From Bacteroidales bacterium (GTDB lineage: Bacteria > Bacteroidota > Bacteroidia > Bacteroidales > UBA932): DNA of 64,000 nucleotides. Every line of letters starts with the position of its first letter. Position 1 is the stretch's first letter. Positions 34,536 through 64,000 of this stretch are shown one piece after another. A program made the position numbers and the translations under genes. The stretch spans positions 46,342-110,341 of the forward strand of contig JAUYTX010000024.1 in NCBI GenBank assembly GCA_030695025.1, given 5' to 3'. The notes beneath the pieces are model-generated. The model did not search any database, was not told the origin of the DNA, and worked only from the letters and a program-made list of their open reading frames with translations.

Positions 34536-35393
34536 CTAAATATTTATTTTATCTTCAACAATAATCCACGACTTTACCGAAGCATTAAGCTCCATATTGA
34601 CTCGGGAAATGTCAATGTAAATAACCAGTCTCTTTGAATATATATACTCATCTTCCAGTTGAGTCAACTCTAATTTTGTGTTCTGAACCTTCTGATTGTT
34701 ATAAATAAACTTAATTTCCAGCTCTTTCTTTTCGGGATCAACTCCCAGAAGGCTGAATGAGCCGGTGAAGTTGTTCACACGGCTTGCCTCTGCAGAGATT
34801 GATGGATTGGTAACAGGGTCGAAAATAAGTTGATTGTTGTGAAATAAAAATCCTTTTGAGACTCCGTTCTGCGTAATTATGCATCTCTCCAGTGAATCTT
34901 TTGCGCCCTCGATAATTAATTGATACTCTATGTTTTTGACTTGGTTAACAAGGTTAATATTTAAGACATTTGGAGCATTTGGCATTACAAAATACTCCTT
35001 TACCGTTGAGGCAAAAACATTTCTAAGAGGATTGGTTGTTGTCATCATTGCTCCTTGGGTATTCAAGAGCAAACTTGCCTCCCTGAATTTGTGCATTTCC
35101 CCAAATCTTACGCCAGAAGCAGACAGGTTGACTGTAATAAAATTGTATTTTCCAACTGCAATATTAAGAGTGTCAATTTGTTTAACCGATCTTTTGGTTC
35201 TAACAAGAGAATCTCCTGCATATACATATGTTGTGTAAATCTCTCCCCCCTTGCTCAAAGAGCTGTCTGCAATTGTCTGGTATTTTACCTCCACAGTGTA
35301 TTTATTCCACATAGGGGCATAAACCTCCCGCTTGCTACATCCGAAAAGGAAAGCAACACCCAACAATATGTATATGCAGACGTTTATCTTCAT
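34536..35393 (-). CDS. FimB/Mfa2-like pilus anchor lipoprotein
   Basis: FGCSKREVYAPMWNKYTVEVKY; LNIAVGKYNFITVNLSASGV layout; position at the promoter-proximal end of the pilin genes. Confidence 0.6.
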   Translation of the reverse strand: MKINVCIYILLGVAFLFGCSKREVYAPMWNKYTVEVKYQTIADSSLSKGGEIYTTYVYAGDSLVRTKRSVKQIDTLNIAVGKYNFITVNLSASGVRFGEMHKFREASLLLNTQGAMMTTTNPLRNVFASTVKEYFVMPNAPNVLNINLVNQVKNIEYQLIIEGAKDSLERCIITQNGVSKGFLFHNNQLIFDPVTNPSISAEASRVNNFTGSFSLLGVDPEKKELEIKFIYNNQKVQNTKLELTQLEDEYIYSKRLVIYIDISRVNMELNASVKSWIIVEDKINI

Positions 35394-36433
35394 CTTATTC
35401 CGGGTCGTTTATATCCTCCAAATCTGTAGCTTATGCTTAAATTATAACTTGTAAAACCAAACTCACTGCTCTCAAGAGACTCAGAGACAAAAAAACTTCC
35501 ATTGTTAACAATGTATGTGTCGTATTTATCACTTCTGTATCCAGCCCTTAATCCCGCCTCAAGAGTTATGCCTCTGTACAGCGGCAAAGAGTATCCTATG
35601 CTAAGACCTCCTCCTGCAAAACTTCCGGTCTTACCCTTCTCATCAACGCTTACATCCCTTATGTCAAAATCTCCGTAAAGCCCGTACAGGCCGGCGTAAA
35701 ATCCATTAAAGCCCTCTTTTTTACCCATATAGACCCTATTTTCGATAACTGCTCCGCTCACTTTATACCAATCCTGAGAGTTAATGTCTGTTTTGTCAAC
35801 AATTGGTGCTTTGAAACCCTCTGCACTGATGGAGAATCTTTTAGCATAAAAGAACTCGACTGAGAGGTTAAAGATTGGGTCTGTAAAAGTGGCCGGAGGT
35901 ATTATCCCTGCAATTCCCAACAGATTGGTTTTGATTGCAACAATGGGTTTGTAAACCTGTTTTTCGGACTGCTTCTCAATCGTTTGTGGCTGAGAATTTA
36001 CATTTACAGGCTGTAGATTTGTAGCTACTTGCGGCGAGGTAGTTTGTTGAGGGTGTGAATAAGCATTTTCCGGCTGTATGTTTGAAGTTGATTCCTGTGA
36101 ATAGACTCTCTCCGGCTGGGTGTTTGCTGTTGACTGCTGCGAGTAGACTCTCTCCGGCTGCGTGTTTGACGCTGTCTGCTGTGAGTAAGATTTTTCCGGC
36201 TGTATGTTTGACGTTGTCTGCTGTGAGTAGACTCTCTCCGGCTGTGTATTCACAATTACGGGTTGCGAATTTACATTTGAGAAGTTTCCGTTTACCTGTT
36301 GGGGTTGGTCGTTTACTTTAGCCGTTTGTGTAAATTTTTTCTCCAATTCACTTATTCTTGAAAGCAGCTCTTCAACTCTGACGCTTTCTTTAGTTTCATA
36401 AGCGTTGTTCTCATCAGGAAACGCCTCCATCAA
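35390..36433 (-). CDS. DUF3575-like protein with N-terminal 14-aa tandem repeats
   Basis: C-terminal VAIKTNLLGIAGIIPPATFTDPIFNLSVEFFYAKRFSISAEGF...LSISYRFGGYKRPG; tandem QPERVYSQQTTSNI-type repeats. Confidence 0.65.
   Translation of the reverse strand: MMEAFPDENNAYETKESVRVEELLSRISELEKKFTQTAKVNDQPQQVNGNFSNVNSQPVIVNTQPERVYSQQTTSNIQPEKSYSQQTASNTQPERVYSQQSTANTQPERVYSQESTSNIQPENAYSHPQQTTSPQVATNLQPVNVNSQPQTIEKQSEKQVYKPIVAIKTNLLGIAGIIPPATFTDPIFNLSVEFFYAKRFSISAEGFKAPIVDKTDINSQDWYKVSGAVIENRVYMGKKEGFNGFYAGLYGLYGDFDIRDVSVDEKGKTGSFAGGGLSIGYSLPLYRGITLEAGLRAGYRSDKYDTYIVNNGSFFVSESLESSEFGFTSYNLSISYRFGGYKRPGIR
36058..36250. repeat. 42-bp coding tandem repeat, about five units
   Basis: cggctg core recurs at 36071, 36113, 36155, 36197 and 36239, an exact 42-bp period. 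Confidence 0.9.
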
Positions 36434-45375: not shown

Positions 45376-47883
45376 TTATTGTTTTGTAGGTATTCTATTA
45401 TGCAATATTTCCTTAACAACTACCCCTAACAACAACAAGATAAGTATGCCTGAGGCAATTCTTGAGTAGAGTTCACCTTTGGTGAAGGATTCTGGTTTGA
45501 AATCAAACTCTACAGTGTGGCTTCCTGCAGGGAGTTTAAGACCCCTTAGGGTGTAATTTGCTCTGAAAATTGGCACCTCCTCTCCATCGACAAAGGCTCT
45601 CCAGCCCGCCGGGTAGTAAATTTCACTGAACAGGGCAACTCTGCTGCTGTTGGAATTGTACTGATAGGTAAGCTTATTTGGAGAGTATGCAGTGAGTACA
45701 ATCATCTCATCACTGGCCAAAGTATCCTTTGAATAACCCTCAATCAGTGAGGCATAGCTGTTATTGACCACCGCATTGAATTTTATGTCAAACGGTTCGT
45801 CAGCCTCGGCAGGGTTTAGCATCTTTATTTCACGGGTGTTTGTCTCCACAATTTTTACATCTGTCACAAACCATGCATTGCCCATGGCGTTTGTATTGAT
45901 AAGCGGTGGGCTCTCTGCTGATATTACAATATATCTGGTATTGAGCATATTCAGAACAGAGTAATTTCCTAAACTGCTTTGCGCCTCATCAATTGTGCGA
46001 CTCTCCTTTAAATCGGTTGCAATTTGCTGCATCTCACGGTAGAGGTGGTTATCTATCATATCCTGATATCTCTGCAATTTTGCAGGGCTGTAACCGCCTA
46101 TTGTTTTGTGGTGGTAGCTAATGTGTGAGTCGTTGAAAGGGCTCTCAATACTTAGGTCAAGAACTCTGTAATTAGGGTCTTTATCCTGAAGAATCAGCTT
46201 ATCAACGGTTCTGAGTGTATACTGATTTTCAAAATCACGCCTCTTTACAAAATGGTCATCATTGAGGTACCTCTTTCCAACCACCCACAAATCTGCAACA
46301 AAAATCAGGGCAATAATACCAAAAACCAATCCCTGCTTAATTTTGCCCTTGAAGCCAAACCATATTACCGTGGCGCCGGCCAGAATGAACATAAGTGAAC
46401 GGAATGCATCTGCCCTGAGCAGATCCATTCTGTCGTTGATCAATGGTTCATGAAGTGCCTGCGGAAGTCGAGCATCACCCGCAGATGTGAATGATCCTGC
46501 AAGTGACGGGATGATTGCAAACACCAGCGAAAGGCCGGCGGTTATCGCAAGCGAAATTGCAAATGCCTTTTTTAGCCTCTTTTGGTCATACTCTTTTTTA
46601 AGAATCCTGTCAAGCACAATAATTGCCAATAACGGGATGGTTATCTGGAGAATCACCAGCACCATTGAAACCGTTCTGAATTTACTGTAGAGAGGAATGT
46701 ATTTAAAGAAAAACTCTGTAACAAGCAGCAGATTAGACCCCCACGAAAGCATCACGGCCAACAGGGAGACGCCGGCCACCCACCACCTGAGCGGACCTTT
46801 TATGAGAATAAGCCCAAGGACAAAAAGAAACAATGAGAGAGCCCCCATATACATAGGGCCTGCAGTGAATGGCTGAGGTCCCCAATAGAGTGGAAGTTGC
46901 TTGATTACCTGTTCGGCTCCCGAATATCCTCCAGATTTTAGAGCCTGGTAGGTGTGTGATTTTCTTGACAACTCCCCGCCTGACGAACCGCCGTTAAAGT
47001 TTGGTATCAAGATATTAGGCATCTCTTCGGGACTGTATGACCAGTTGGTAGCATAGGAGATATCCAGCCCCTTTTGATCTTTACCCTCCTCCTGGGCCAG
47101 CTCTGAGCCTCCCCTCATTGTGAATTTTGAGTACTCATACGTAGGCCACAAATGGTTAACGTTGGAGGCTATGCCCAGAAGCCCGGCAACAAGAAGCATT
47201 GCAGAGACAGATATGAATTTTTTAAAATACCCCTCTTTAATTGCCGAATAGAGTTGGGCGATTGCCAGAGCAAGTATTATCATGGCCAGATAGTAGGTAA
47301 TCTGAGGGTGGTTGGCCTTAATCTGAAAACTAAGGGCAAATGCAAAGAGGACAGATCCAAGAAGCGCCTTTTTATTGTACGCATATACAACAGCAGCCAC
47401 TACCCACGGCATAAAGGCAATCGCCACCATCTTTGAGTTGTGCCCAACCTGAATTATCTGCAGATTGTACGAGCAAAATGTAACGGCAAAGGCCCCGATA
47501 GCCGAAAGCCAGGGGTTAATCCCAAATGCAAGAAACATCAGAAAGGCTCCTGCCAGACTTATCAGAAGGTAAGCCGGTGGCCTTGTTCCAGAAATCTTGT
47601 TTATCAGTTTGTAAAAATAGTCGGTGTAATCACCATCGTAAATAACAGAGATTGTTGTTGCCGGCATACCCGAAAACATTGAGTTTGTCCAAAGTGCGGG
47701 ATCCTCATCGGGATTGGCCTTGTTGTACTCAATTATCTCATTTGCCATGCCCCTCCATGCGGCAATGTCACTCTGATTTACAACCTTGTTCTGCAACACC
47801 TGAGGTGTAAAGAGGTATGCCGTCACTGCAAATAGCAGCACAGGTATCAAATATTGCCTGTATCTCTTTAAAAACTCCTTCAT
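45376..47883 (-). CDS. YfhO family membrane protein
   Basis: Large polytopic protein; YSPNKLTYQYNSNSSRVALFSEIYYPAGWRAFVDGEEVPIFRANYTLRGLKLPAGSHTVEFDFKP. Confidence 0.9.
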   Translation of the reverse strand: MKEFLKRYRQYLIPVLLFAVTAYLFTPQVLQNKVVNQSDIAAWRGMANEIIEYNKANPDEDPALWTNSMFSGMPATTISVIYDGDYTDYFYKLINKISGTRPPAYLLISLAGAFLMFLAFGINPWLSAIGAFAVTFCSYNLQIIQVGHNSKMVAIAFMPWVVAAVVYAYNKKALLGSVLFAFALSFQIKANHPQITYYLAMIILALAIAQLYSAIKEGYFKKFISVSAMLLVAGLLGIASNVNHLWPTYEYSKFTMRGGSELAQEEGKDQKGLDISYATNWSYSPEEMPNILIPNFNGGSSGGELSRKSHTYQALKSGGYSGAEQVIKQLPLYWGPQPFTAGPMYMGALSLFLFVLGLILIKGPLRWWVAGVSLLAVMLSWGSNLLLVTEFFFKYIPLYSKFRTVSMVLVILQITIPLLAIIVLDRILKKEYDQKRLKKAFAISLAITAGLSLVFAIIPSLAGSFTSAGDARLPQALHEPLINDRMDLLRADAFRSLMFILAGATVIWFGFKGKIKQGLVFGIIALIFVADLWVVGKRYLNDDHFVKRRDFENQYTLRTVDKLILQDKDPNYRVLDLSIESPFNDSHISYHHKTIGGYSPAKLQRYQDMIDNHLYREMQQIATDLKESRTIDEAQSSLGNYSVLNMLNTRYIVISAESPPLINTNAMGNAWFVTDVKIVETNTREIKMLNPAEADEPFDIKFNAVVNNSYASLIEGYSKDTLASDEMIVLTAYSPNKLTYQYNSNSSRVALFSEIYYPAGWRAFVDGEEVPIFRANYTLRGLKLPAGSHTVEFDFKPESFTKGELYSRIASGILILLLLGVVVKEILHNRIPTKQ

Positions 47884-50491: not shown

Positions 50492-53101
50492 ATGAACTCC
50501 GGTAAAAAAATAGCAGAGACCCCTTTAATGAAGCAGTATCTGGCCATAAAGGCCAAGTACCCTGATGCCGTTTTACTGTTTCGTGTGGGCGACTTTTACG
50601 AGACCTTTAGCGAGGATGCAATCATTGCCTCCAAAGTACTTGGTATTGTACTCACCAAAAGGGCCAACGGAGCCGCCTCTCACGTAGAACTGGCAGGCTT
50701 TCCCCACCACTCAATTGACAGCTATCTTCCCAAACTGGTAAGAGCCGGTTATAAAGTTGCCATCTGCGACCAGCTGGAGGATCCTAAACTCACCAAAACA
50801 ATTGTAAAAAGAGGCATAACCGAGTTGGTTACACCCGGAGTTGCGTACAACGATCAGCTTCTTTCAAACAACGAGAACAACTACCTCTGCGCAGTAAGCT
50901 TCCGGGGAGAGAGCGGAGGAGTTGCTTTTCTTGATATATCAACCGGCACCTTTCGTGTTGCTGCCGGCTCACTTGAATACATTGAGCTTCTGCTTGCAAG
51001 CCTGTCTCCAAAGGAGGTTCTTGTAGAGAGGTCGTTCCGAAAAGGGTTTGAGGAGAGGTTTGGCAAAGATTACTATATAACCACCATGGACGAATGGGCC
51101 TTTGTTCAGGAGGCCTCATACGAAAAGCTTAAGGAGCATTTTGGCACAACATCACTAAAGGGCTTTGGAGTTGAGGAGATGCCGTTGGCGGTTACGGCAG
51201 CCGGGGCGATTCTCTTCTATCTTGAACTGACCCGCCACGAAGGTCTTGGCCATTTATGCTCTATCTCCAGAATTGACGAGGGAGAGTACGTGTGGATAGA
51301 CAAATTCACATTCAGAAACCTGGAGGTGTTCGGGAGCTACCGGGAGGAGGCCGTATCGCTTTTCAAGACCATTGAGAGATGCGCAAACCCCATGGGTTCG
51401 AGAGCTCTCAGGAACTGGCTGGCAATGCCTTTGAAAGATATTAATCAACTGAACATAAGGCACAGTATTGTTGAAAAGCTATTCAATGACAACCATTTGA
51501 TGGATTCCCTAAGGGCATTACTGCATGAGACGGGAGATCTGGAAAGGGTTGTTTCAAAGGCAGCCGCCGGAAGAATTACTCCCCGCGAAATGACAATGCT
51601 CAGGCGGGGTCTACAGCAGATTAATCCAATCCGGGAGCTGTGCATCAATTCAGAATCTACACACCTCAAATTGTTTGCAGAGTCACTTGACAACTGTCCC
51701 AAACTGATGGAGAGACTCACTGCAGAGCTACTTCCCGACCCCGCCGGCCTTATCGGAAAAGGAGATGTAATTTCGCCGGGGGTAAATCAGGAGTTGGATT
51801 CGCTGCGGGACATAGCACGACACGGCAAGCAGATATTGGCATCCATTCAGGAGAGAGAGACTCAACGCACAGGAATTTCATCGTTAAAAATAAGCTACAA
51901 CAATGTGTTCGGCTACTATCTCGAAGTAAGAAACACACACAAAGATAAGGTCCCGCAGGATTGGATCAGAAAACAAACACTTGTGAGCGCCGAAAGGTAC
52001 ATAACCCAGGAACTCAAAGAGTACGAAGAGAAGATCCTGGGCGCAGAGGAGAAGATACTCGTTCTGGAACAGACTCTTTTCAACAACTTAATTGCAGCCA
52101 TACAGCAAAACATTCCTGCCATACAGCAAAATGCGGCCATACTTGCCCGACTGGACTGCCTTGCAGGCTTTGCTCTTGTATCAAAGGAGAACAACTATTG
52201 CCGCCCACAGTTAAATACCGGCACTGCCATTGACATCAAAAACGGAAGGCACCCGGTAATCGAAAAACTTATGCCTCCGGGAGAGGAGTATGTGGCAAAC
52301 GATATATACCTCGACAACGATAACCAACAGATTATAATACTCACCGGACCAAACATGGCCGGAAAAAGCGCCCTTCTAAGACAAACAGCCCTCATCGTAC
52401 TTATGGCGCAGGCAGGGTGTTTCGTTCCGGCAGAGAGTGCTTCAATGGGTATTGTTGATAAGATTTTTACCCGTGTAGGGGCATCTGACAACATTAGCCG
52501 CGGAGAGAGTACCTTCATGACAGAGATGCTCGAAACATCTACAATTTTGCACAATCTCTCAACAAGATCACTAATTTTGCTCGACGAAATTGGCAGAGGA
52601 ACAAGCACATACGACGGAATGTCAATAGCCTGGGCAATTGTAGAGTATATACACGAACACCCTGAATATAAGGCAAAAACCCTCTTTGCGACCCACTATC
52701 ACGAGCTGAACGACCTGGAAGGGAAGTTTCCGAGAGTAAAAAATTGGCACATTTCTGTAAAAGAGGTCGGTAAAAACATTATATTTCTGCGAAAATTGTG
52801 CAGAGGAGGGGTTGAGCACAGTTTTGGAATTCATGTGGCCAGGATGGCAGGTATGCCGCAGGAGGTAGTCAACAGAGCCGGCAGAATTTTAAAGCAGCTG
52901 GAGAGCTCGGGAGCAACCGAGGGCAAAAAGGGTAAAAGGGCAACAATAAATGAGGAGGCAGTTCAACTCTCTTTCTTTAAACTTGACGACCCTCTTTTAA
53001 TAGATTTAAGAGACGAATTGCGAGATATGGATATTAACACACTCTCACCGCTTGACGCATTTGATAAATTAAGAAACTTAAAAAAGAGATTGGGTCTTTA
53101 A
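50492..53101 (+). CDS. mutS: DNA mismatch repair protein MutS
   Basis: TPLMKQYLAIKAKYPDAVLLFRVGDFYETF, TGPNMAGKSALLRQTALIVLMAQ and LILLDEIGRGTSTYDGMSIAWA. Confidence 0.97.
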   Translation: MNSGKKIAETPLMKQYLAIKAKYPDAVLLFRVGDFYETFSEDAIIASKVLGIVLTKRANGAASHVELAGFPHHSIDSYLPKLVRAGYKVAICDQLEDPKLTKTIVKRGITELVTPGVAYNDQLLSNNENNYLCAVSFRGESGGVAFLDISTGTFRVAAGSLEYIELLLASLSPKEVLVERSFRKGFEERFGKDYYITTMDEWAFVQEASYEKLKEHFGTTSLKGFGVEEMPLAVTAAGAILFYLELTRHEGLGHLCSISRIDEGEYVWIDKFTFRNLEVFGSYREEAVSLFKTIERCANPMGSRALRNWLAMPLKDINQLNIRHSIVEKLFNDNHLMDSLRALLHETGDLERVVSKAAAGRITPREMTMLRRGLQQINPIRELCINSESTHLKLFAESLDNCPKLMERLTAELLPDPAGLIGKGDVISPGVNQELDSLRDIARHGKQILASIQERETQRTGISSLKISYNNVFGYYLEVRNTHKDKVPQDWIRKQTLVSAERYITQELKEYEEKILGAEEKILVLEQTLFNNLIAAIQQNIPAIQQNAAILARLDCLAGFALVSKENNYCRPQLNTGTAIDIKNGRHPVIEKLMPPGEEYVANDIYLDNDNQQIIILTGPNMAGKSALLRQTALIVLMAQAGCFVPAESASMGIVDKIFTRVGASDNISRGESTFMTEMLETSTILHNLSTRSLILLDEIGRGTSTYDGMSIAWAIVEYIHEHPEYKAKTLFATHYHELNDLEGKFPRVKNWHISVKEVGKNIIFLRKLCRGGVEHSFGIHVARMAGMPQEVVNRAGRILKQLESSGATEGKKGKRATINEEAVQLSFFKLDDPLLIDLRDELRDMDINTLSPLDAFDKLRNLKKRLGL

Positions 53102-58630: not shown

Positions 58631-59983
58631 TTGGAGCGAAACTTACATTTGATAAGAATACAACATATGGAACCCGAGACAAACCGCATAGAATACAAAC
58701 AGCATCTTACAGATGATTTAGAAAAGGAAGCCATTGCTTTTCTAAACTATCAGGAGGGAGGTGTCATATACATTGGAATCCACAAATCTGGAACAGTAGT
58801 TGGGGTTTCTGATATTGATGGCGATATGCTCAAAATTAAAGACCGTTTGAAAAACAACATTATGCCTTCTTGTATGGGACTGTTCGATGTTGTAGTAGAG
58901 AATATCGAATCGAAAGACGTGATTAAAATCACTCTTGCCAGTGGAACGGAAAAGCCGTACTATATCAAAAAACTTGGTATGTCAGAAAAAGGTACATTTA
59001 TCCGTGTTGGAACGGCAGCCGAACCGATGCCAGTAAGGGTGATAGAATCTCTGTTTGCGAAACGCACTCGAAATTCTATAGGTAAAATCAAGTCGCCGAA
59101 TCAGAATCTAACATTTGAACAGCTTAAGATTTACTATGAAGGCGTAAACAAAACGCTGAATCAACAATTTTCGGCTAATCTCGAATTGCTTACTGCAGAT
59201 GGACAATATAACTATGTTGCTTACCTATTGGCTGATATAAATGGGATTTCTATAAAGCTCGCAAAATATGATGGACTTGATAGGGTTGATTTAATGGAAA
59301 ACAACGAATATGGGTATTGTTCATTAGTAAAAGCCACAAAACAAGTATTAGATAAGATTGAAGTTGAAAATAAGACGCTTGCAAAGATTACTCCCAAAGA
59401 GCGGGAAGAGAAAAGGCTTTGGAATCCTGTTGCTTTACGTGAAGCTGTAATCAACGCAATGGTTCATAACGATTATACTTCGGAAGTTCCTCCAAAATTT
59501 GAGTTCTTTGATGATAGAATTGAGATTACTTCATTTGGAAGTCTCCCGCAAGGAATGACAGAAAAAGAATTCTTTGAGGGTTATTCTGTCCCTCGTAATA
59601 AAGAACTAATGCGAGTATTTCGGGATTTGGAACTGGTTGAACATTTAGGATCTGGCGTTCCTCGTATTTTAAAAAGCTATGGAAAAGAGTGTTTTAAGTT
59701 TACCGAGAACTTTCTACGAATGACTTTCCCTGGATCCGAGCAAGTTACCGAGCAAGTTACCGAGCAAGTCAAAGAACTAGTTAATGTATTGGATAAAGAA
59801 ATGGATAGGCAAGAAATTCAGGATAAATTAGGACTTGCTCATAGAGAAAATTTTCGATCCAACTATCTAAAGCCCGCATTAGAACAAGGTTTTGTTGAAA
59901 TGACTATACCTGATAAGCCTAATAGCAGTTTGCAAAAATATCGCTTGACTATATTAGGGAAGCAACTGAAAGGGAAACTGTGA
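58631..59983 (+). CDS. AlbA_2/Schlafen-type, RecG-like ATP-binding transcriptional regulator
   Basis: ETNRIEYKQHLTDDLEKEAIAFLNYQEGGVIYIGIHKSGTVVGV, REAVINAMVHNDYTSEVPPKFEFFDDRIEITSFG and EQVTEQVTEQVKEL; ATG at 58667 may be the true start. Confidence 0.88.
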   Translation: MERNLHLIRIQHMEPETNRIEYKQHLTDDLEKEAIAFLNYQEGGVIYIGIHKSGTVVGVSDIDGDMLKIKDRLKNNIMPSCMGLFDVVVENIESKDVIKITLASGTEKPYYIKKLGMSEKGTFIRVGTAAEPMPVRVIESLFAKRTRNSIGKIKSPNQNLTFEQLKIYYEGVNKTLNQQFSANLELLTADGQYNYVAYLLADINGISIKLAKYDGLDRVDLMENNEYGYCSLVKATKQVLDKIEVENKTLAKITPKEREEKRLWNPVALREAVINAMVHNDYTSEVPPKFEFFDDRIEITSFGSLPQGMTEKEFFEGYSVPRNKELMRVFRDLELVEHLGSGVPRILKSYGKECFKFTENFLRMTFPGSEQVTEQVTEQVKELVNVLDKEMDRQEIQDKLGLAHRENFRSNYLKPALEQGFVEMTIPDKPNSSLQKYRLTILGKQLKGKL

Positions 59984-60232: not shown

Positions 60233-61381
60233 ATGAAAAACCCTCATTTACCTTTCTATTTTTTGTGGGTAATCTTTGCCTTAATTAGCTGCAATAGGCT
60301 TGAAAATGAAACAATCCAAACAATTACACCATTAAAAGCCACAACTTTTACCGATGATTTTTCATTATTTGTGGAGACATTAATCTTTATCCCGGTACAA
60401 AGTAGCTCTGGAGATATTATATCTGTGGTATCTAAGATCTTAATTGATAATAATGATAACTTTATTTTAAAAGACGAAATCCTAGGCATTCAAGTTATTG
60501 ATGAAACCGGAAAATATATCGGAAGTATCGGCAATAAAGGGCGCGGACCAGGCGAATATACCGATATTACTGATATGTGCATAACCCCAGATGGTGAGTA
60601 CATCTGGCTCCTCTATTCAAGTGGTGTATCAAAATATAAAATAGGTGACGGCAAGTTTGTTTTAAAGATAAATTTAGAACAAGTTAATTACGACGCAATA
60701 TGTGCGTCCGATAACGGGGGCTTTTACCTGTTCTCTTCAAATCCTCCTGACGAATCAAACTTTGAAGAGCATTTCTATGCCCTTACTCAATTTGACAGCA
60801 ATGGAGAGAAAATTAAAGAGTTCTTGCCCAGGAAAGACTATGTATTTACACAAGGTATATTTACTCAGTCTTATGACAAATCAACAATTATGAGACCTCA
60901 GGAGGGTGACAATATTGCTTATAAAATCGGAAAAGAGATCATTCCATTTTTAAAAATTGATTTTCAAAACCACACAATTCCGCATAAGTATATTTTCAAG
61001 GATGGTGGCGATTTGTTTGAGGGGATGAAAAATTATCTATTTTCGGATTACTATAAGCTCCCAATACATATACATGACACAAAGGAACATATCTATTTTT
61101 CTTGTATTGGCCCGAGTGCTTTGCAGAACGATTTTGTTTTATCTAAGAATACCAATAAAGGGTTCCGATGGGCTTATGAAAGAAGCGACAGAGACCCTCT
61201 ATTTATTATGGCCTCAGATTCAAACTATTTTTATTCAGTAATATACCGCGACAAAGGTGTTGTTAAAGAGGCAGTATCAAAAACAACAAATCTCAAAGAC
61301 TATGTTTTACACAAAATGAGTCAGCTTCCAGACTCAGACAATGATGTTTTTATTATTAAATTGAAGTTTTGTAATATTTGA
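60233..61381 (+). CDS. 6-bladed beta-propeller lipoprotein
   Basis: ALISCNRLEN lipobox; GIQVIDETGKYIGSIGNKGRGPGEYTDITDMCITPDGEYIWLL. Confidence 0.82.
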   Translation: MKNPHLPFYFLWVIFALISCNRLENETIQTITPLKATTFTDDFSLFVETLIFIPVQSSSGDIISVVSKILIDNNDNFILKDEILGIQVIDETGKYIGSIGNKGRGPGEYTDITDMCITPDGEYIWLLYSSGVSKYKIGDGKFVLKINLEQVNYDAICASDNGGFYLFSSNPPDESNFEEHFYALTQFDSNGEKIKEFLPRKDYVFTQGIFTQSYDKSTIMRPQEGDNIAYKIGKEIIPFLKIDFQNHTIPHKYIFKDGGDLFEGMKNYLFSDYYKLPIHIHDTKEHIYFSCIGPSALQNDFVLSKNTNKGFRWAYERSDRDPLFIMASDSNYFYSVIYRDKGVVKEAVSKTTNLKDYVLHKMSQLPDSDNDVFIIKLKFCNI

Positions 61382-61644
61382 TATTCATAATGCTCATTCA
61401 ATTTTTCGTTCAACATATTTCTCATACCAAATTCTGAGTTAATTTGTCATTTCAAAAGGCAAATGATTTCTAATCCGAACATTTATTTGGATTATTATTT
61501 CTATTTATTATCAAATACCCACATATCGTTACATTGTTAAATTGGAGCAAGTTGCATTTCCGGCAAAAAATCTTTTGTGTTTTTTTTACAAAAACCTCCC
61601 CAAAGTTTGGTTAAATGTCAAAAATATACATACATTTGCACCCG

Positions 61645-61850
61645 AATTGGTATCGATACACCAGCAGGTGTGTTGATTAAAAGGGAACCGGGTGTGAATC
61701 CCGGACAGGCCCGCTGCTGTGAAGCACGTGAACGTTCCAAAAAAATCTGCGACCACTGGTCATAACGGCCGGGAAGGTTTAGGAATGAGTGTGTTAGTCA
61801 GAAGACCTGCCAATTCAAGTAAATGTCAGTTAGCCCCGTGGATCGGGTTG
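61645..61850 (+). ncRNA. Cobalamin (adenosylcobalamin/B12) riboswitch
   Basis: gggaaccgggtgtgaatcccggacaggcccgctgctgtgaa, gaccactgg, and B12 box agtcagaagacctgcc; candidate P13 hairpin cccg-tggat-cggg (61835-61847). Confidence 0.93.
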
Positions 61851-61995
61851 AATGGCAACCTAAAAGTTAAACTTCGAAAAATAGTCGCCCTTGACTTGGG
61901 CGGGATGTGAAAACATGCGAAACCGGCATTTTTGCCGGAGTGTAATTGCTTTGCCTGAACCGAAACACGAAACTGAATATTAAACACATACCATT

Positions 61996-63456
61996 ATGAT
62001 GACAAAAGAGCAGTATATCGAAAGCCTCAGGAAGATGAATCTTAAGGTTTACCTTATGGGCGAACTAATAGACAACCCCGTTGATCATCCAATGATTAAA
62101 CCGTCTATGAATTCTGTTGCAATGACCTACGAGCTTGCCGAAATGCCGGAATACCGTGAGCTTATGACCGCAACATCTAACCTCACCGGTAAAACCATAA
62201 ATCGTTTTTGCCACCTGCATCAGAGTACAGACGACCTTGTAAAAAAGGTTAAGATGCAACGCCTCTTAGGGCAGAAGACTGCTGCCTGTTTTCAACGCTG
62301 CGTAGGAATGGATGCCTTTAATGCCATCTACTCTACTACATATGAGATCGACAAAAAGCACGGCACAGAATATCACAAGCGATTTACTGACTATCTGAAA
62401 TTTGTACAGGAGAACGACCTTACGGTTGACGGTGCGATGACAGATCCTAAAGGAGATCGCGGCCTCTCTCCGTCAAAGCAGGCAGATCCCGACCAATATC
62501 TTCGGATTGTAAAGGTTTTGCCGGAAGGAATTGTGGTGAGAGGTGCAAAAGCTCACCAGACAGGTGCCGTTAACTCGCATGAACACCTTATTATGCCTAC
62601 AGTTGCAATGAAGGAGGAGGATGCGGATTATGCAGTCGCTTTTGCTGTTCCATCTGATGCAGAAGGGGTTGTTATGATCTACGGAAGGCAATCTTGTGAT
62701 ACCCGCAAAATGGAGCCGGGTGCAGACATCGACCTGGGAAATCCCCGCTTTGGTGGTCATGAGGCTCTTGTCATTTTCAACGACGTTTTTGTTCCTAATG
62801 AGCGCATCTTCATGTGCCGTGAGTATGATTTTGCAGGCATGATGGTTGAAAGGTTCGCAGGTTACCACCGCCAGTCATACGGTGGGTGTAAGGTTGGCGT
62901 TGGCGATGTACTGATTGGTGCTTCAGCAGTAGCTGCCGATTACAATGGAGCTGCCAAAGCAAGCCACATCAAAGACAAGCTGATTGAGATGACTCACCTG
63001 AATGAAACCCTGTATGCCTGCGGTATAGCATGTTCGGCAGAGGGAGAGTCGATGCCTGCAGGCAACTATATTGTTAACCTGTTGCTTGCCAATGTCTGCA
63101 AACAGAATATCACCCGTATGCCTTACGAGATAGCCCGCCTTGCAGAAGATATCGCGGGAGGTCTTATGGTTACAATGCCTTCGGAACAGGATTTTCGCAG
63201 TTCAGAGGTGGGACCATACATCGAGAAGTACCTTGTTGGAGTTGCAGGGGTTTCAACGGAAAATCGTATGCGCATCCTGCGCCTTATCGAAAACATTACA
63301 CTTGGTACTGCAGCTGTCGGCTACCGCACAGAGTCGATGCATGGAGCAGGCTCTCCTCAGGCTCAGCGCGTGATGATTGCCAGACAAGGTGATATTGAGG
63401 GTAAAAAACTTCTTGCAAAAGAAATTGCCAGAATAAATGAGGAGCAGAATGGCTAA
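61996..63456 (+). CDS. abfD: 4-hydroxybutyryl-CoA dehydratase / vinylacetyl-CoA isomerase
   Basis: YIESLRKMNLKVYLMGELIDNPVDHPMIKPSMNSV, FNAIYSTTYEIDKKHGTEYHKRFTDYL, MTDPKGDRGLSPSKQADPDQYLRIV and VVRGAKAHQTGAVNSHEHLIMP. Confidence 0.95.
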   Translation: MMTKEQYIESLRKMNLKVYLMGELIDNPVDHPMIKPSMNSVAMTYELAEMPEYRELMTATSNLTGKTINRFCHLHQSTDDLVKKVKMQRLLGQKTAACFQRCVGMDAFNAIYSTTYEIDKKHGTEYHKRFTDYLKFVQENDLTVDGAMTDPKGDRGLSPSKQADPDQYLRIVKVLPEGIVVRGAKAHQTGAVNSHEHLIMPTVAMKEEDADYAVAFAVPSDAEGVVMIYGRQSCDTRKMEPGADIDLGNPRFGGHEALVIFNDVFVPNERIFMCREYDFAGMMVERFAGYHRQSYGGCKVGVGDVLIGASAVAADYNGAAKASHIKDKLIEMTHLNETLYACGIACSAEGESMPAGNYIVNLLLANVCKQNITRMPYEIARLAEDIAGGLMVTMPSEQDFRSSEVGPYIEKYLVGVAGVSTENRMRILRLIENITLGTAAVGYRTESMHGAGSPQAQRVMIARQGDIEGKKLLAKEIARINEEQNG

Positions 63457-63760
63457 CAGTTTATTTGTACAAACCACATTTAGTGAGAGAGTTGAGCGCG
63501 CTGTAAATGAGTATATCCGCCCTTCATTACAACTGCACCAGGGAGATATATGTGTCAGAGATGTACGTGACGGAGAGGTGTGGGTAGAGTTAAACGGAGC
63601 TTGCAAAGGTTGTCCTTCAGCACAGATAACAATGGATGAGACAGTGAAGCAAACTCTTACTGAAATACTTGGCAACGAGCTTAAAGCCGTTCATCTTGTA
63701 AACGAAGTGGACGAAGATCTGCTCAATTTCGCCAGAAATTTGCTTAACAAAAACAAATAG
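63449..63760 (+). CDS. NifU C-terminal-domain-like Fe-S protein
   Basis: RVERAVNEYIRPSLQLHQGDICVRDVRDGEVWVELNGACKGCPSAQITM (CxxC). Confidence 0.85.
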   Translation: MANSLFVQTTFSERVERAVNEYIRPSLQLHQGDICVRDVRDGEVWVELNGACKGCPSAQITMDETVKQTLTEILGNELKAVHLVNEVDEDLLNFARNLLNKNK

Positions 63761-63763
63761 CTG

Positions 63764-64000
63764 ATGAACTGGAAAGAACAATATAAAGACAGGATAACTA
63801 CAGCTGCCGATGCGGTTGGAGTGATAAAAGATTCCGATTATATCGTCTGTTCGCACGCTGCAGCTAACCCTCAGGTTATCATGCGAGAATTAGTTGCACA
63901 AAAAGAGAGATTCCGTAACCTCCACATCTATCATATGCTTCCTCTCGGTTACGGGGATTATCTTCTGCCCGAAAATGCAGAACATTTTCACCACATCACA
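63764..64000 (+). CDS. abfT: 4-hydroxybutyrate CoA-transferase / acetyl-CoA hydrolase family, N-terminal fragment cut by window end
   Basis: MNWKEQYKDRITTAADAVGVIKDSDYIVCSHAAANPQVIMRELVAQKERFRNLHIYHMLPLGYGDYLLPENAEHFHHI; operon context with abfD. Confidence 0.85.
   Translation, partial: MNWKEQYKDRITTAADAVGVIKDSDYIVCSHAAANPQVIMRELVAQKERFRNLHIYHMLPLGYGDYLLPENAEHFHHIT

Follow-up and report, generated by a model that had tools for sequence, protein, structure and literature searches.

A cobalamin riboswitch heading a succinyl-CoA-to-butyrate operon in Bacteroidales and its proposed role in the choice between propionate and butyrate

Cobalamin riboswitches control the synthesis of B12, its uptake, and B12-independent isozymes. 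At the 3' end of the window, meaning the whole stretch of 64,000 nucleotides analysed from a Bacteroidales bacterium, an element of this class lies in front of abfD, and the question arises of what a B12 sensor does at the head of a butyrate operon. The features of the region are as follows.

61606-61638, + strand: predicted promoter, with TTTG at 61606-61609, 21 nt, and TACATTTG at 61631-61638 (from the sequence)
61631-61828, + strand: cobalamin riboswitch aptamer, RF00174 (cmscan, 116.1 bits, E 2.8e-29)
61709-61716, + strand: loop L5, GCCCGCTG, predicted kissing-loop partner (CCGC complementary to GTGG of L13)
61824-61857, + strand: P13 hairpin, predicted expression platform (folds locally and complements L5, as in the closest relatives L005 and L006)
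61957-61976, + strand: candidate competitor strand immediately 5' of abfD (from the minimum-energy fold of the leader)
61996-63456, + strand: abfD, 4-hydroxybutyryl-CoA dehydratase/vinylacetyl-CoA isomerase (486 aa; 837.6 bits with PDB entry 1u8v)
63437-63760, + strand: NifU-like [Fe-S] scaffold-domain protein, overlapping the end of abfD (PF01106, 69.9 bits)
63764-64000, + strand: start of cat2/abfT, 4-hydroxybutyrate/butyryl-CoA:acetate CoA-transferase (matches to 3eh7 and 3gk7)

Riboswitch leader of abfD

A preliminary description of this DNA claimed a near-canonical cobalamin riboswitch ending 145-180 nt before abfD, on the same strand and with no intervening gene, and proposed a covariance search with RF00174. 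That search bears the claim out: the match to the window spans the full model (1-189 of 189) against a gathering score of 31.5, and about 167 gene-free nucleotides separate the end of the aptamer from the abfD ATG on the same strand. Helix P1 extends from ~61640 to 61822, the conserved B12 box AGTCAGAAGACCTGCC lies at 61796-61811, and the receptor core GGGAACCGGGTGTGAATCCCGG is conserved as well. By the RF00174 model, the leader is confirmed as a complete class-I cobalamin riboswitch, whose ligand would be of the AdoCbl type. The 2.25-Mb genome (about 91% complete) contains only two RF00174 matches, the stronger of which is the abfD aptamer; the second (C36:39899-40091) precedes the gene of a BtuB-like TonB receptor (btuB). 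A chance match is excluded because of this low number per genome and because 27 Bacteroidota loci share the arrangement.

The promoter pair is of the Bacteroidota -33/-7 type and adjoins the 5' side of the aptamer, and transcription is expected to start just before or at P1. Among 26 comparable abfD leaders, 24 have the motif TAnnTTTG directly 5' of their aptamer, with 1.9 expected from shuffles; no second copy occurs between the aptamer and abfD in the window. The CCGC of L5 (61711-61714) is complementary to the GTGG of L13, the loop of P13 (CGTGGATC, 61837-61844), and the pair covaries across lineages as CGCG/CGCG, CCCC/GGGG, and TCCCC/GGGGG. This complementarity predicts a kissing loop that links the aptamer to the expression platform, an interaction of a type known from studied corrinoid riboswitches (PMC10653944).

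Further downstream, CCGA (61960-61963) and CACG (61966-61969) of the competitor strand can pair with the P13/L13 region, and the strand is conserved in L006 apart from one wobble-preserving change. In the alternative fold, the P13/L13 segment is bound to 61960-61976, adjoining the abfD start codon. This pairing is a candidate regulatory element whose sign is not readable from the sequence. No clear intrinsic terminator turned up on the coding strand in a search of the leader in the window; terminator-like hairpins were seen, by eye only, in the leaders of three other loci (L031, L044, and L056). The mean column identity of the leader is 94% in the three nearest sequences.

Operon content and B12 metabolism of the genome

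The AbfD reading frame scores 837.6 bits against the AbfD of Clostridium aminobutyricum (1u8v), compared to ~142 bits for HpaB hydroxylases, and contains the Pfam domains HpaB_N and HpaB. Residues C98, C102, H291, and C298 align with C99, C103, H292, and C299 of 1u8v, which we take to be the ligands of the [4Fe-4S] cluster. Judged by these scores and residues, the product is a true 4-hydroxybutyryl-CoA dehydratase. The adjoining NifU-like gene keeps this position in many relatives, and its small product may supply AbfD with the [4Fe-4S] cluster.

Contig C79 ends where the window ends, inside cat2. Its last 318 nt (63683-64000) overlap contig C81 of the same genome (L105) with 93% identity, identical at first and divergent later, which probably reflects strain variation or a mixture in the assembly. 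According to tblastn, C81 continues with the end of nifU, cat2, 4hbD, sucD, bcd, etfB, and etfA, and the same gene order follows the same riboswitch in L005 and L006. SucD scores 480 bits against 8cei, a solved CoA-acylating succinate-semialdehyde dehydrogenase, and the 370-residue 4HbD scores 383 bits against the solved protein Cvir-Hbd2. The genes sucD and 4hbD, suggested earlier as targets to be sought elsewhere in the genome, are thus both located on the overlapping contig, and together with cat2, abfD, and bcd-etfAB the set is present on C79/C81. By homology, the riboswitch-led unit covers the whole route from succinyl-CoA to butyrate. We know of no enzyme of this route that uses B12.

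The B12-dependent counterpart, methylmalonyl-CoA mutase, whose presence the preliminary description likewise proposed to verify, is encoded by mutA and mutB in the same genome (C52:28762-32144), and in the window the riboswitch heads a transcription unit of a B12-independent enzyme, with promoter, aptamer, and abfD in sequence. MetH, the beta subunit of lysine 5,6-aminomutase (KamE), and a corrinoid-protein homologue are also encoded. No corrin-ring methylases were found in the genome; the only two TP-methylases detected are both RsmI-like. B12 is probably imported by the organism, since no corrin-ring pathway is seen.

The idea that abfD leads the operon merely because a B12 transport gene sits downstream was rejected, as the downstream genes encode the pathway enzymes followed by [FeFe]-hydrogenase-like and SpoIIE/PP2C-like proteins. 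This latter pair lies 3' of etfA in the same direction (L105:2752-5659, - strand; also L006:18447-21381), and similar pairs are found 5' of abfD in the rumen loci L008, L014, L015, and L056; the pair possibly ties redox sensing to the butyrate operon. On the 5' side, the neighbors are a Schlafen/AlbA_2 regulator with a Fic-like C-terminal domain and a DUF5128 six-bladed beta-propeller protein (58631-59983 and 60233-61381), which are not evidently related to the operon.

Distribution of the arrangement among Bacteroidota

The survey comprised the 80 top AbfD loci from named genomes, plus 60 genomes of the family of the window. Among the abfD operons of Bacteroidota, 27 carry the riboswitch (the window and the related genome G007 counted) and 24 do not. 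The riboswitch-bearing group includes Sanguibacteroides, Tannerella, several Porphyromonas species, and rumen lineages. Motifs missed by a regular expression are excluded as the cause of the negative loci: a second search of all 24 with Rfam at the gathering threshold gave no RF00174 match. Within the family of the window, abfD occurs in 3 of 60 genomes, each time with an RF00174 match upstream. Directly before the abfD genes of Firmicutes, no B12 box was found among the loci examined; Clostridium simiarum (L077) has a box 2.4 kb 5' of abfD, which was discarded because it stands in front of other genes.

Mapped onto the AbfD tree, the riboswitch label changes eight times, at least five of them on supported branches. 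A tree of the aptamers from 13 genomes, weak and with long branches, requires at least four changes of the abfD label. A single origin of the abfD riboswitches is rejected by these changes, which are compatible with several recruitments or losses, gain being indistinguishable from loss.

In G007 and G008, the distance between aptamer and abfD is about 800 nt, with marC in between. The bcd-etfBA genes of G007 form a separate unit, and near-identical cassettes of promoter, aptamer, and P13 precede both transcription units of this genome (L165, G007:C30:44000-55000).

Contig 47225-47407 and contig 50646-50828: the two G007 cobalamin riboswitches, of which one lies before bcd-etfBA and one before marC-abfD-nifU-cat2-4hbD

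The two cassettes diverge just after P13, a point that may delimit the functional unit in G007.

Proposed switch, alternatives, and known systems

The abfD leader is quite probably a cobalamin OFF switch that diverts succinyl-CoA to propionate when B12 is available and to butyrate when it is scarce. The OFF sign is preferred because most known cobalamin riboswitches repress (PMC11575231, PMC10653944) and because the regulated genes form a B12-free sink for the substrate of a B12 enzyme. With plentiful imported B12, the ligand would lock the L5-L13 kissing loop and P13, lowering the expression of abfD-nifU-cat2-4hbD-sucD-bcd-etfBA, and succinyl-CoA would flow to propionate via B12-dependent methylmalonyl-CoA mutase. 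With scarce B12, the mutase would be left without its coenzyme and the riboswitch would be open, so that B12-free enzymes would convert succinyl-CoA to butyrate via 4-hydroxybutyrate and crotonyl-CoA. We infer the sign, an effect of P13 at the level of either transcription or translation, and the change of acid; B12 supply probably determines which fermentation acid is produced. The preliminary description had proposed the same shutdown of the butyrate branch by B12. Its reading is supported in part, namely by the riboswitch, the complete B12-independent operon, mutAB in the genome, the enrichment of the riboswitch in genomes with mutAB, and the separate switch on the bcd-etfBA unit of a relative, while the direction of the response, AdoCbl as the ligand, and the shift in acid output are predictions.

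Matches to mutAB are found in 26 of 27 riboswitch-positive genomes compared to 17 of 24 negative ones (Fisher p=0.019, kinship ignored). Only five independent pairs lie on supported branches, and a sign test on the link is not significant. The positive exception is a metagenome-assembled genome (G092, L044), where the absence is perhaps due to incompleteness; in two other positive genomes, mutAB is present as fragments or as one subunit only. Porphyromonas circumdentaria, which has neither mutAB nor a riboswitch on its abfD, fits the link. Since 17 Bacteroidota genomes combine abfD and mutAB with an abfD that has no riboswitch (e.g., Porphyromonas loveana and P. canoris), the wiring is not obligatory.

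An activating switch, by which B12 would turn the operon on, for example because B12-dependent lysine fermentation needs Bcd-EtfAB or because reductant has to be removed during B12-dependent metabolism, is improbable. One activating corrinoid riboswitch is known (PMC10653944), KamE is encoded in the genome, and beside the start codon the leader can form a pairing that would be disrupted by P13. Yet activating corrinoid riboswitches are rare, the steps of abfD, sucD, and 4hbD play no part in lysine fermentation, and the riboswitch is linked with mutAB and not with lysine 5,6-aminomutase, which occurs in 17 of 26 positive and 17 of 24 negative genomes (p=0.77). The rationale from lysine fermentation is rejected on this lack of association; both Tannerella forsythia genomes are without lysine aminomutase.

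Slightly less probable still is a general response to B12 starvation, in which the mutAB link would arise from lineages that keep their B12 metabolism and retain both traits. Porphyromonas circumdentaria (L047), an isolate nested among riboswitch-bearing species, has a bare abfD and lacks mutAB and any genomic RF00174 match, which makes joint losses possible; phylogenetically independent contrasts are too few, and the cobalamin riboswitches of the same genomes precede genes as diverse as those of secreted proteins, CbiK, and TonB receptors. Against such a general response stand the regulated set itself, which gives the substrate of the B12 enzyme a complete alternative outlet, and the presence of the switch on both transcription units of G007. 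A decayed or read-through relic, with abfD driven by another promoter, would suit the 167-nt spacer and the absence of the element from many relatives but is very unlikely in view of the full-length aptamer, the intact B12 box, L5/L13 pairs that stay complementary while differing from lineage to lineage, the conservation of the leader, and the lack of a second TAnnTTTG before abfD.

Beyond the OFF switch at this single locus, it appears rather likely that a B12-sensing cassette of promoter, aptamer, and P13 has been attached several times to the succinate-to-butyrate pathway in Bacteroidota, even duplicated per transcription unit, and that cobalamin from neighbors sets the ratio of propionate to butyrate in B12-importing bacteria of gut, rumen, and mouth. 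Propionate and butyrate differ in their effects on the host and on rumen physiology. If the proposal is true, cobalamin riboswitches also choose a fermentation end product, and a vitamin from neighbors steers the acid released by a B12 importer, as many Bacteroidota seem to be.

The wiring of riboswitch and abfD recurs in many related bacteria, yet it has barely been noticed before. One sentence of a 2020 study of Tannerella transcripts places a cobalamin riboswitch 5' of 4-hydroxybutyryl-CoA dehydratase (PMC7160235), the same arrangement as here, and our survey scored the T. forsythia loci L038 and L039 as riboswitch-bearing. The suspicion that related wiring had already been noted in Bacteroidales such as Porphyromonas is correct, but for Tannerella. 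The part of that study concerned with these transcripts labels the gene "adenosylcobalamin biosynthesis" and does not deal with the operon, the logic of the pathway, its distribution, or mutAB. In the literature searched, which left most subscription journals out of scope, no proposal of a B12-controlled switch between butyrate and propionate was found.

The closest regulatory parallel is the MetE/MetH logic, tested with a cobalamin riboswitch 5' of metE, e.g., in Priestia megaterium (PMC9600662), and "isozymes of B12-dependent enzymes" are one of the categories in surveys of B12 regulons (PMC3766115). Like the abfD leader, the metE and nrd riboswitches put a cobalamin aptamer in control of a B12-free substitute for a B12-dependent enzyme. 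Their alternative is an isozyme that gives the same product, whereas here it is a whole catabolic branch, which starts at the B12 enzyme's substrate and yields butyrate instead of propionate. The succinate-to-butyrate pathway of Porphyromonas gingivalis (PGN_0723-0725, PMC4949257) and Clostridium AbfD show the same kinds of enzymes and the same order of reactions as the operon described here; cobalamin goes unmentioned in the P. gingivalis paper, and P. loveana has no riboswitch in our survey. In Xylanibacter ruminicola, B12 supply decides propionate formation via the succinate pathway (PMC11575231, 2024). This member of the rumen Bacteroidales shares the B12-dependent propionate formation proposed here but makes no butyrate, and none of its four cobalamin riboswitches lies near succinate-pathway genes (PMC11575231).

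Other cobalamin riboswitches were observed in related genomes. One lies directly before the gene of a second butyryl-CoA:acetate-type CoA-transferase (G070, L172, G070:C41:51580), and in two genomes of the same clade (G103, L177; G106, L181) the element precedes nrdD, which encodes an anaerobic ribonucleotide reductase that does without B12; control of this classical B12-independent alternative speaks for the OFF reading of the abfD leader. In T. forsythia, the abfD riboswitch has a near-identical copy 4.4 kb upstream of itself (G088, L166, contig 35244-35453), located before a 552-aa reading frame without a Pfam match, and further elements precede the genes of DUF4430 and T9SS-tail proteins. 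The 552-aa, DUF4430, and T9SS-tail proteins are possibly unrecognized B12-uptake proteins.
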